A stretch of 64,000 nt of DNA from Eggerthellaceae bacterium (GTDB lineage Bacteria; Actinomycetota; Coriobacteriia; Coriobacteriales; Eggerthellaceae). This document shows, one piece after another, positions 55,426 to 59,964 of the stretch. Numbering within the stretch: the first letter of the stretch is position 1; the number at the start of each line of letters is the position of its first letter. The stretch is from assembly GCA_015062605.1 (NCBI GenBank), contig SUUI01000002.1, positions 1 to 64,000 on the forward strand. The letters are read 5' to 3'. A program made the translations under genes and the position numbers. Below the pieces are notes generated by a model. The model was not told the DNA's origin and ran no database searches. It saw nothing but the letters and a program-made list of their open reading frames with translations.

Positions 55426-56256
55426 TTAGCGCTTCTGCAACACAAGATATTCGTTCAAGCTGTCCGAACGCCCGTCTGACCGAAAACGTGCAACGAGTTT
55501 TGCACGCGGTGAAATCTCCTCGATAAGAGCTTCGACGTCATCGTCGGAAAAGCTGTGGGCATAGCGATACACGCCGCTTCGCTCCTGCCAGCCGAGGAAA
55601 GCGTCACCTTGCTCGAGCATATCGAGATCGAATGCATCCGCAAGATCGATCCGCACTAGTTCGGTCGTCTCGGCAGCCTTGCGCGCAAGGCGCTCGTCCT
55701 CCATGAAACGCCATAGCGAGATCGCAACCTCACCACCAGGGCGCACGGCATCGCACAGCCGATTAAGCAAATCTGCGCGCGCCTTGCGTCCTGGCACATG
55801 GTGGAAAAACCCGAAGCAAGCGGCGAGATCGAATTCCGAAAAGCCCATCTGCGCACCTGCAAGCACACGCGAGATGACATCGCATGTGCAAAACAGCATC
55901 TCGCCCACAGCGAGGTTTCCTGCTGACAACGGCTGGTCGATCTCGCCTGCAAATCGCACGGGCAACCCGAACGCCTCCGAGCCGGTACGCGCAAGGGATT
56001 CGCAGGTATCGATTGCGCAGACTGCAAAAGGATAATCCCCCATCTCGTCAGAAAGGAACGATTCGAAGCGCATATTCCCGCACGCCACATCGAGAATGCG
56101 GATCATATCGCCATCCCTGCGCATGGCATCGGCAGCATCAAGGCATGTTCGCCATCCCGGCCATGCCGCGTCGCGCGTATCGGAAAACGATGACGCGCAA
56201 GCATCGTAGAAATGCTGGTTAAGTTCATTGAGGAAGAGGACGGTTTCGGTGTTCAT
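55426..56256 (-). CDS. SAM-dependent methyltransferase, Trm9/ALKBH8-like
   Basis: Class I methyltransferase of 276 aa. The SAM loop is LDVACGNMRFE near residue 54, an acidic residue pair in AIDTC near 83, then FGFFHHVPGRKARADLL and LCDAVRPGGEVAISLW, similar in order and spacing to Trm9/ALKBH8 tRNA methyltransferases. The end of the protein has VYRYAHSFSDDDVEALI, again like that group. Assignment is by eye. It is divergent from elp3, 30 bases apart. The start is ATG at 56256 or GTG at 56265; neither has a ribosome site. Confidence 0.7.
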   Translation of the reverse strand: MNTETVLFLNELNQHFYDACASSFSDTRDAAWPGWRTCLDAADAMRRDGDMIRILDVACGNMRFESFLSDEMGDYPFAVCAIDTCESLARTGSEAFGLPVRFAGEIDQPLSAGNLAVGEMLFCTCDVISRVLAGAQMGFSEFDLAACFGFFHHVPGRKARADLLNRLCDAVRPGGEVAISLWRFMEDERLARKAAETTELVRIDLADAFDLDMLEQGDAFLGWQERSGVYRYAHSFSDDDVEALIEEISPRAKLVARFRSDGRSDSLNEYLVLQKR

Positions 56257-56276
56257 AGTGCGCACTATTATATAAT
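56255..56276. promoter_or_regulatory. Compact bidirectional promoter with 14-bp palindrome
   Basis: ATAGTGCGCACTAT (56255-56268) is a perfect palindrome. It is joined to ATTATATAAT (56267-56276), which contains TATAAT for both strands: 56271-56276 (plus) and 56267-56272 (minus). The start codons lie only about 10 bases from each box, so both mRNAs would be almost leaderless. The palindrome overlaps the methyltransferase start. Confidence 0.6.
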
Positions 56277-56285
56277 GGCTTCACT

Positions 56286-58115
56286 ATGGAAGCTATCATC
56301 TTGGATATCGCGAACAGGCTCAAAGCAAACGAGACCATCGACGCCAACGAACTCGCACGTATCATCCGCGCGCACAACGAAGGCATCGTCGACGTCTCTA
56401 GGCATATAGCCAAAAAGAAGCTTCTTCCCTTTTATCTGCATGCCCAAATAATCGACCCTGCTTTCTGGTCCAATCGCGGCATAGACGATGAAACGGAAAC
56501 AAAGCTTTTGAGTCTCCTGCAGGTCAAGCCGCGAAGAACCGCAAGCGGCGTTGCAACTATCACGGTCATCACAAAGCCGCATACCTGCTCGAGCGCCTGC
56601 ATCTACTGCCCGAACGATATACGGATGCCAAAGAGCTATCTTTCGGACGAGCCGGCATGCCAGCGTGCTGAACGCGCGTATTTCGATCCGTATCTCCAAG
56701 TCGTCTCGCGCATGAAAGCGCTTACCGAGATGGGACACCCGACTGACAAAATCGAGCTCATCGTGCTCGGTGGTACGTGGAGCGATTATCCGCTCGATTA
56801 CCAATATTGGTTCATGACGGGATTGTTCCGTGCGCTCAACGACATGTCCGATACAGCGCTTTCAGAAGACGCCGTGTATGCCCAAGTGAACATGCTTACC
56901 GAACGATATCGTCAAGCAGGCATAAGCCGCGATCGTAGCGAGTTGGCAGAACAGACGCGCAGCATGCAGGCGCGCATCGATGCCGGAGAGCTTACATACA
57001 ACCAAGCGTTCGCCGAGCAATACGACAGCAAAAGTCCGTGGTCGCGCATCGCCTCATGGCAGAAGGCGGACTCTTCCGATCTTGCGGCTGAGCATGAGCG
57101 CAACCACAGCGCCGGCAAACGCGTTGTAGGACTCGTGGTGGAGACCCGCCCCGACCTCATCACGCCAACGACGCTCACCCAACTTCGGAGCTTCGGATGC
57201 ACCAAGGTCCAAATCGGCATCCAGAGCCTTGATGAAAGCATCCTACGTGCCAACCATCGCGCAATCGACCTTGAGCAGCTGACACGAGCATTCGATCTGC
57301 TCCGGCTGTTCGGATTCAAAACCCATACCCATTTCATGGTGAACCTGTACGGATCTAATCCAGAACATGACAAGGCGGACTACGAACGCTTCGTGACCGA
57401 TGCGCGCTTCTTGCCCGACGAGGTCAAGCTGTACCCATGCGTCTTGGTCAAAGGCACCCCTCTTGCCTCACTGTACGAATCTGGCGCATGGCAGCCATAC
57501 GATGAAGAAACGCTCATAGACGTATTAGCGCATGATGTCACCATCACGCCTCCCTACACGCGCATCTCCCGAATGATCCGCGACATCTCAGCGAAGGACA
57601 TCGTCGCAGGCAGCAAGAAGACGAATCTGCGGCAACTAGTGGATGGGAAGCTTTCAAACGAGAATGCGGACGTTTCCGAAATCCGCACGCGTGAAATCAA
57701 TGATGCAAAAACCGTTGCTGAGACGCTCGATTTGGATGATGTTGTTTATGAGACGCATGCGACCACCGAGCACTTTCTGCAGTGGGTGACCCCAGAAGGC
57801 CTCATCGCAGGATTCTTACGCCTGTCACTTCCCCATCCAGATGCATGGGATATCTACGATGGACTGCCCACGCTCCCTGATGAGGCGATGATCAGAGAGG
57901 TTCATGTGTACGGGAAAGCTGCAAAACTCCATACGCTCGGCAAGGGAGCGCAGCACCATGGTCTCGGGAAAGCGCTTATCGCCCGCGCATGCGAAATCGC
58001 GCAAAAAGCAGGTTATGGGCGCATTAACGTGATCAGTGCGATCGGCACATACGAATACTATTCACGTCTAGGATTCCGCGATTCCGGCTTATACCAACAA
58101 AAAGGATTGGATTGA
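56286..58115 (+). CDS. elp3: Elp3 radical-SAM/acetyltransferase tRNA-modifying protein
   Basis: Catalytic Elongator subunit homologue, which makes the carboxymethyl group at C5 of wobble uridine. The radical-SAM cluster ligands are Cys101, Cys105 and Cys108 (CSSACIYC). QIGIQSLDESILRANHR near residue 317 and ARFLPDEVKLYPCVL near 377 are typical. The C-terminal GNAT domain has IREVHVYGKAAKL near residue 536 and GLGKALIARACEIA near 560. Length 609 aa. Elp3 is the usual route to mcm5U in eukaryotes and archaea and is scattered in bacteria. Confidence 0.95.
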   Translation: MEAIILDIANRLKANETIDANELARIIRAHNEGIVDVSRHIAKKKLLPFYLHAQIIDPAFWSNRGIDDETETKLLSLLQVKPRRTASGVATITVITKPHTCSSACIYCPNDIRMPKSYLSDEPACQRAERAYFDPYLQVVSRMKALTEMGHPTDKIELIVLGGTWSDYPLDYQYWFMTGLFRALNDMSDTALSEDAVYAQVNMLTERYRQAGISRDRSELAEQTRSMQARIDAGELTYNQAFAEQYDSKSPWSRIASWQKADSSDLAAEHERNHSAGKRVVGLVVETRPDLITPTTLTQLRSFGCTKVQIGIQSLDESILRANHRAIDLEQLTRAFDLLRLFGFKTHTHFMVNLYGSNPEHDKADYERFVTDARFLPDEVKLYPCVLVKGTPLASLYESGAWQPYDEETLIDVLAHDVTITPPYTRISRMIRDISAKDIVAGSKKTNLRQLVDGKLSNENADVSEIRTREINDAKTVAETLDLDDVVYETHATTEHFLQWVTPEGLIAGFLRLSLPHPDAWDIYDGLPTLPDEAMIREVHVYGKAAKLHTLGKGAQHHGLGKALIARACEIAQKAGYGRINVISAIGTYEYYSRLGFRDSGLYQQKGLD

Positions 58116-59308: not shown

Positions 59309-59511
59309 CGCATTATCTCTCTCGTTCACAGTTTGATTGCCGCACGCAGATCGCATCAAGGATAGCACAGTGCGAAGATCTACCGCGCCAAAGAAGCGCG
59401 CCTTCGGCAATCCTCCACTTGCCCGCAACAGAACATGCACGGTATTATCAGGACGGCTCTCGAGCACCGATGACATATCGGTTGCCGCCGCACACAAGAA
59501 AGGATGCTGCC

Positions 59512-59964
59512 ATGCGCGCGATCATCCAACGAGTCAGCTCCGCAAGCGTCACGATCGACGGAGAGGTAACCGGCTCTATCGGAGTGGGATACCTTATCTT
59601 GCTCGGTGTGAGCAAAACCGATACCGACGAAGAAGCGAGGAGGCTTTGGAGCAAGATCTCGAAGCTGAGGCTTTTTAGCGACGAGGAAGGCAAGACGAAC
59701 TTAAGCCTGCATGATATCGGCGGATCGGTACTGGTGGTGAGCCAATTCACCTTGTACGCTAACTGTAAGAAGGGCAATCGCCCATCATTTACCGATGCCG
59801 GGTTGCCCGATGAAGCGAATAGACTCTACGAGGCGTTCTTAGCGCTCGCGCGTACCGATTTGGGAGACGCGTGCGTAGCACATGGAAGCTTCGGGGCCGA
59901 AATGCAGGTCGAGCTTGTAAACAATGGACCCTTCACAATCCTGCTCGATACCGATACCCTGTAA
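59512..59964 (+). CDS. dtd: D-aminoacyl-tRNA deacylase
   Basis: Removes D-amino acids and Gly wrongly attached to tRNAs. MRAIIQRVSSASVTIDG at the start, VSQFTLYANCKKGNRPSF near residue 78 and the C-terminal NNGPFT (a variant of the NxGP motif) form the active site. The length of 150 aa is normal; AAAGGAT stands upstream. It may be relevant here because D-Asp, D-Glu and D-Ala are made in quantity. Confidence 0.95.
   Translation: MRAIIQRVSSASVTIDGEVTGSIGVGYLILLGVSKTDTDEEARRLWSKISKLRLFSDEEGKTNLSLHDIGGSVLVVSQFTLYANCKKGNRPSFTDAGLPDEANRLYEAFLALARTDLGDACVAHGSFGAEMQVELVNNGPFTILLDTDTL

Follow-up and report, generated by a model that had tools for sequence, protein, structure and literature searches.

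It is a question whether some bacteria modify the wobble uridine of tRNA in the same way as eukaryotes do. In eukaryotes, Elp3 makes cm5U34, and Trm9 or ALKBH8 methylates it to mcm5U. The usual bacterial route at U34 is the MnmEG system including MnmG, which leads to xm5U34, and MnmA is the thiolase for s2U34. Two reviews make the eukaryotic route unexpected in bacteria: mcm5U was treated as a eukaryotic signature (PMC2584109), and a review of 2017 described no detectable bacterial relatives of the Trm112-dependent methyltransferases (PMC5372719). In archaea, homologues of Elp3 and Trm9 were predicted in Haloferax volcanii and Sulfolobus solfataricus (PMC2584109, PMC5372719), the clustering of the two genes in S. 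solfataricus was noted in 2008, and mcm5(s2)U was predicted to occur (PMC2584109). With regard to Elp3 itself, a 2026 paper reported that numerous bacteria keep only this subunit, which likely acts alone (PMC13315578).

Here, we analyzed a stretch of 64,000 nucleotides from a bacterium of the family Eggerthellaceae (the window). A preliminary description had suggested that an elp3 gene and a divergent gene for a Trm9-like methyltransferase in this window form a two-step unit of wobble modification. The genetic linkage and the sequence comparisons support this suggestion well, and we consider it quite probable that the two enzymes constitute a tRNA wobble-uridine pathway from cm5U34 to mcm5U34.

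Results

Organization of the locus

Both genes are intact and divergently oriented. The elp3 gene (56286..58115, + strand) encodes a radical SAM/GNAT enzyme of 609 aa. The neighboring gene (55426..56256 including the stop codon, - strand) encodes a class I SAM methyltransferase of 276 aa. We place its start at the ATG at 56256 and not at the GTG at 56265, because a start with MN or MD is common to nearly all relatives and the GTG lies one base from a promoter-like -10. Both genes lie where the preliminary description had placed them, and 29 bases separate the two ATGs. Within them, the palindrome ATTATATAAT (56267..56276, strandless) reads TATAAT in each direction, 9 and 10 bases ahead of the two ATGs, and it is identical in the other two genomes of the genus (G092 and G093). 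It looks like a putative symmetric -10 that is shared by the two genes for near-leaderless transcripts in both directions. In the neighborhood, a gene for Dtd (D-aminoacyl-tRNA deacylase) is located at 59419-59964 (+), about 1.3 kb from elp3, with a DUF1893 gene ahead of it on the opposite strand. The tRNAs encoded within the 64-kb window are all without U34.

Elp3

The elp3 product scored 409.3 bits with TIGR01211 (cut-off, 350) over model positions 43-521 of 522, and solved Elp3 structures in PDB matched it at E values of 1e-71 to 1e-78. The radical SAM cysteines C101-x3-C105-x2-C108 (CxxxCxxC) and the motifs KLYP, QHHGLG (QHxGLG, for acetyl-CoA in the GNAT domain) and EYY/YY are present and kept in the relatives, and the GNAT domain is complete, confirming the intact Elp3 of the preliminary description. 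From the TIGR01211 and PDB matches and these motifs, the enzyme is predicted to make 5-carboxymethyluridine at U34 of tRNA. In the linker (window 57671-57710), it has VSEIRTRE where zinc-cysteine Elp3s have CRCIRCRE, and the three zinc-binding cysteines (CRCIRC) were not found in the Coriobacteriia Elp3s that we compared, namely the one in the window and its relatives. These cysteines have been described as conserved in bacterial and archaeal Elp3 and missing in eukaryotic Elp3 (PMC6367351). They are thus not a defining feature of the Elp3 family, since the eukaryotic enzymes also lack them.

Trm9 likeness of the methyltransferase

The methyltransferase of the window matched only generic models in Pfam and no model in NCBIfam, and searches with the single sequence weakly favored generic UbiG-like cores, without Trm9 among the matches. 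An identity as a quinone methyltransferase (UbiG or RquA) was rejected, as the NCBIfam scores of 14-15 bits fell far short of the cut-offs (103 and 175). Alignment of 29 relatives revealed the invariant or near-invariant motifs SFSxTRxxxWxGW, DxxCGNxRF, FGFxHHxP, SxWxF, GDxxLxW, RYxH and N-x-Y. When the profile of this alignment was compared with 177,635 distinct PDB sequences, the top match was Trm9 of the yeast Yarrowia (5cm2) at E 8e-8, followed by the next match at 3e-5; the UbiG structure 4kdc was matched at E 0.009, and no chain of CmoM, MnmC or MnmM was recognized among the matches up to E 0.01. The preliminary description had named a small-molecule or quinone family as the competing assignment for this protein. 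The family profile instead puts Trm9 first among solved structures, and the UbiG-like matches of the single sequence are weak.

Alignment of the window family with 5cm2 by hhalign gave E 7e-13 at about 20% identity, with TR..W, DxxCGN, HH, PG..W, GD..xW and RYxH in register. The hallmarks of Trm9 outside the SAM core (Y-x6-FSxTRxxxW, RYxH and the C-terminal Asn) also align in register. To separate the Trm9 likeness from the shared SAM core, N- and C-terminal sub-profiles were scored against Trm9, an intermediate family described below and 14 generic methyltransferases, selected as the outsiders with the highest scores. Positive scores beyond noise were seen for Trm9 and the intermediate family, and for none of the 14 generic controls; with the full profile, one generic outsider reached 36.0 bits, near the 38.7-39.5 bits of Trm9. 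The yeast Trm9 sequence used in this test and for residue numbering was partly checked by its 239-bit match to 5cm2.

In yeast Trm9, the substitutions R29A, H115A, R241A, Y243A and N271A cause loss of tRNA affinity and activity (PMC5372719). Our alignment places these sites at the R of FSxTR, the first H of HH, the R and Y of RYYH and the N of DNWW. Four of the five (R29, H115, R241 and N271; the numbering was set on this yeast sequence with an offset of one or two and partly checked against 5cm2) correspond to R28, H152, R231 and N268 here, which are all invariant among the 29 aligned sequences. The residue equivalent to Y243 is usually Cys or Ala in the window family, giving RY(C/A)H as against RYYH.

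With regard to Trm112, no free-standing protein (PF03966) was matched in the genome of the window. PF03966 matches across Coriobacteriia were only zinc-ribbon stretches inside ORFs of at least 141 aa, none of which tracked the gene pair, and they were rejected as Trm112. Other comparisons were less specific. When a two-sequence Trm9 profile was searched in the own genome, the window methyltransferase was found at E 0.26 and a generic methyltransferase at 1e-4. An AlphaFold model of the methyltransferase alone was confident (pLDDT 92.6), and in Foldseek, Trm9 was at rank 3, with similar scores for many other class I methyltransferases. In a tree with the generic controls, the window family joined neither side firmly on its long branches, the controls formed one group in 34% of bootstraps, and the intermediate family was grouped with Trm9 (98/90); a clade restricted to Trm9 and its like was neither shown nor rejected by this tree. 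We therefore file the enzyme as Trm9-like and not as a Trm112-dependent Trm9, considering the Trm112 result, the placement in the tree, the Foldseek rank and the reverse search. Judging from the profile, the hhalign result, the terminal motifs and the intermediate family, the methyltransferase is Trm9-like beyond the common class I fold, as had been suggested by the preliminary description.

An intermediate family in other Actinomycetota

A phylum-wide search found homologues of 240 aa in three other families of Actinomycetota (f53, f44 and f82) at E 1e-19 to 1e-22. In f53 and f44, whose members we call the intermediate family, elp3 is the divergent next-door gene in all four genomes with a long enough contig, and the Elp3s carry the CRCIRC zinc cysteines like Elp3 of Dehalococcoides mccartyi (DmcElp3). 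One intermediate methyltransferase, searched as a single sequence against PDB by phmmer, matched Trm9 best over the whole length (E 1e-17), and the family profile matched Trm9 in PDB at E 2e-20. By hhalign, the intermediate family was aligned with the window family at 4.5e-29 over 234 columns and with Trm9 at 7.5e-26. As the pair in these other families is more archaeal-like, the pathway may be old or may have moved as a unit. Next to the pair in one genome (G373), an NAD synthetase-like gene (L133:8678-10549 (-)) has a long insert inside the synthetase, which appears from its sequence to be an intein.

Co-occurrence of the two genes

We surveyed 140 genomes of the same family and 166 other Coriobacteriia. 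Conservation of the pair, which had been proposed as a check on the suggested unit, was very strong. In the family, 114 genomes have both genes and 19 have neither, with the methyltransferase alone in four and Elp3 alone in three; several of these seven single-gene cases are at contig ends or in incomplete genomes. G111 and G065 are examples of genomes with one gene only. Among the 114, the two genes are neighbors in 107 (91 divergent and 16 on the same strand, nine of the latter in one genus). Both genes are present in 74 and absent from 91 of the other Coriobacteriia, one has Elp3 only and none has the methyltransferase only; they are divergent neighbors in 73 of the 74, and the remaining genome has them on different contigs. 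A supposed relative from Oscillospiraceae (L067) was rejected as a chance match on the strand opposite a TrmK-like gene.

The pairing is far beyond chance, with Fisher values for co-occurrence of 1e-16 (family) and 3e-47 (other Coriobacteriia), which ignore phylogeny and overstate independence, because adjacency makes joint loss easy. Better evidence than these values is the joint absence in three genera (g25, g46 and g53), in each of which one genome of at least 93% completeness lacks both genes while its sisters have both, together with the survival of the pair in both orientations. In one genome (G071), the 5' halves of both genes are gone, a pattern expected from one deletion that spans the intergenic region between them. 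This truncation is a caveat that neighboring genes can vanish together for mechanical reasons.

Two genomes showed further peculiarities. G092, of the same genus as the window, has a second Elp3-methyltransferase pair of about 50% identity on another contig (C26:4447-7082; also contig C2), either because the unit was duplicated or because the bin is chimeric. In G065, a relative of 1.1 Mb that is assigned to this family, the methyltransferase gene (L122:1712-2407 (-)) is intact only when TGA is read as Trp, with six TGA codons mostly at conserved Trp positions. The adjoining pheT (L122:4860-5999 (-)) has two TGA codons, and lysS and greA there have none. These codons may indicate a lineage recoded to UGA = Trp or a mis-binned contig; such a lineage is missing from the bacterial examples that PMC8629427 lists.

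Other enzymes for U34

MnmG (TIGR00136) was above the cut-off in none of the 140 family genomes and in one of 200 Coriobacteriia (absent from 199). Matches to TIGR00136 occur in 134 family genomes but were rejected as MnmG, as they cover only the FAD domain locally and score far under the cut-off. MnmG is missing from Coriobacteriia with or without the pair, and so a mutual exclusion of MnmG and the pair was not seen. All eight genomes that we checked for MnmA have it, whether or not they carry the pair.

Discussion

In the pathway that we propose, Elp3 would use acetyl-CoA and radical SAM chemistry to carboxymethylate U34 at C5, giving cm5U34. The neighboring enzyme, a predicted cm5U34 carboxyl O-methyltransferase, would then methylate the carboxylate with SAM to give mcm5U34, or mcm5s2U34 in the case of tRNAs that MnmA thiolates. 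The pathway would resemble that of eukaryotic Elongator and Trm9/ALKBH8, except that Elp3 is a single subunit and Trm112 apparently takes no part. In this scheme, the substrate (cm5U34) and the product, as well as the choice of tRNAs and the sequence of the two steps, are our inference.

The methyltransferase may instead act in the same pathway on another wobble product, such as an amide or amine derivative or a cmo5U-type carboxylate like that of CmoM, so that the final nucleoside would not be mcm5U. The genetic linkage fits this reading equally, and the deep divergence from Trm9 (about 20% identity) and the replaced Y243 site would be in line with it. Nevertheless, we think it unlikely, given that Trm9 came first among the PDB matches of the profile, without any chain of CmoM, MnmM or MnmC, and that the partner gene encodes Elp3, which makes the substrate of Trm9.

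It is very improbable that a generic small-molecule or quinone enzyme merely lies beside elp3, a disfavored reading in view of the near-perfect co-occurrence and adjacency in about 190 genomes with both genes, in both orientations, and of the Trm9-specific N- and C-terminal motifs, which occur in none of the 14 generic controls. It draws on the single-sequence searches, in which no more than generic models of Pfam and weak matches to UbiG/RquA were obtained, and on the reverse Trm9 search, which did not single out the window methyltransferase. Least probable in our estimation is that the methyltransferase regulates or stabilizes Elp3, or that its substrate is a protein, Elp3 itself or a different one, and not tRNA. 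The strict partnership with Elp3 could be explained in this way, and a methyltransferase in genomes with no free-standing Trm112 detected could itself contact Elp3, but the residues of the SAM site and of the Trm9 tRNA site are invariant and the precedent of Trm9 is methylation of tRNA (PMC5372719).

The proposed mcm5U pathway shares the two enzyme types with eukaryotic Elongator and Trm9/ALKBH8-Trm112, and the hallmarks of Trm9 and four of the five tested substrate-site residues are kept. On the other hand, Elp3 is a single subunit here, no free-standing Trm112 was found, the genes are divergent neighbors, and the methyltransferase has only about 20% identity to Trm9 and RY(C/A)H in place of RYYH. 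The pair of enzymes is the same as in archaea, where clustering of the genes has been reported in few genomes, whereas here the pair is the normal state in several families within a single bacterial class. DmcElp3 (5l7j) is of the same single-subunit form with the rSAM and KAT motifs, although it has the CRCIRC zinc cysteines that the Coriobacteriia enzymes lack, and the accessible part of its description mentions no methyltransferase partner (PMC6367351). MnmEG, which makes xm5U34 in most bacteria, has the same target, C5 of U34, but consists of different enzymes with different chemistry. No report of a bacterial Elp3/Trm9-like pair was found in our literature search, which covered a minority of subscription papers.

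These results suggest that some bacteria use a eukaryote-type mcm5U pathway in place of the usual bacterial route. With somewhat less confidence than for the locus itself, we believe it likely that two genes, elp3 and the one for a Trm112-free Trm9-like enzyme, suffice for making mcm5U34 in Coriobacteriia and some other Actinomycetota, in genomes without MnmEG. If so, the mcm5U pathway would be extended to gut bacteria, as many Coriobacteriia live in the human or animal gut, and the role of Elp3 in genomes without MnmEG would be explained. The methyltransferase would offer a Trm9 that can be studied structurally and enzymatically without Trm112, and the system would bear on the origin of the eukaryotic mcm5U pathway.
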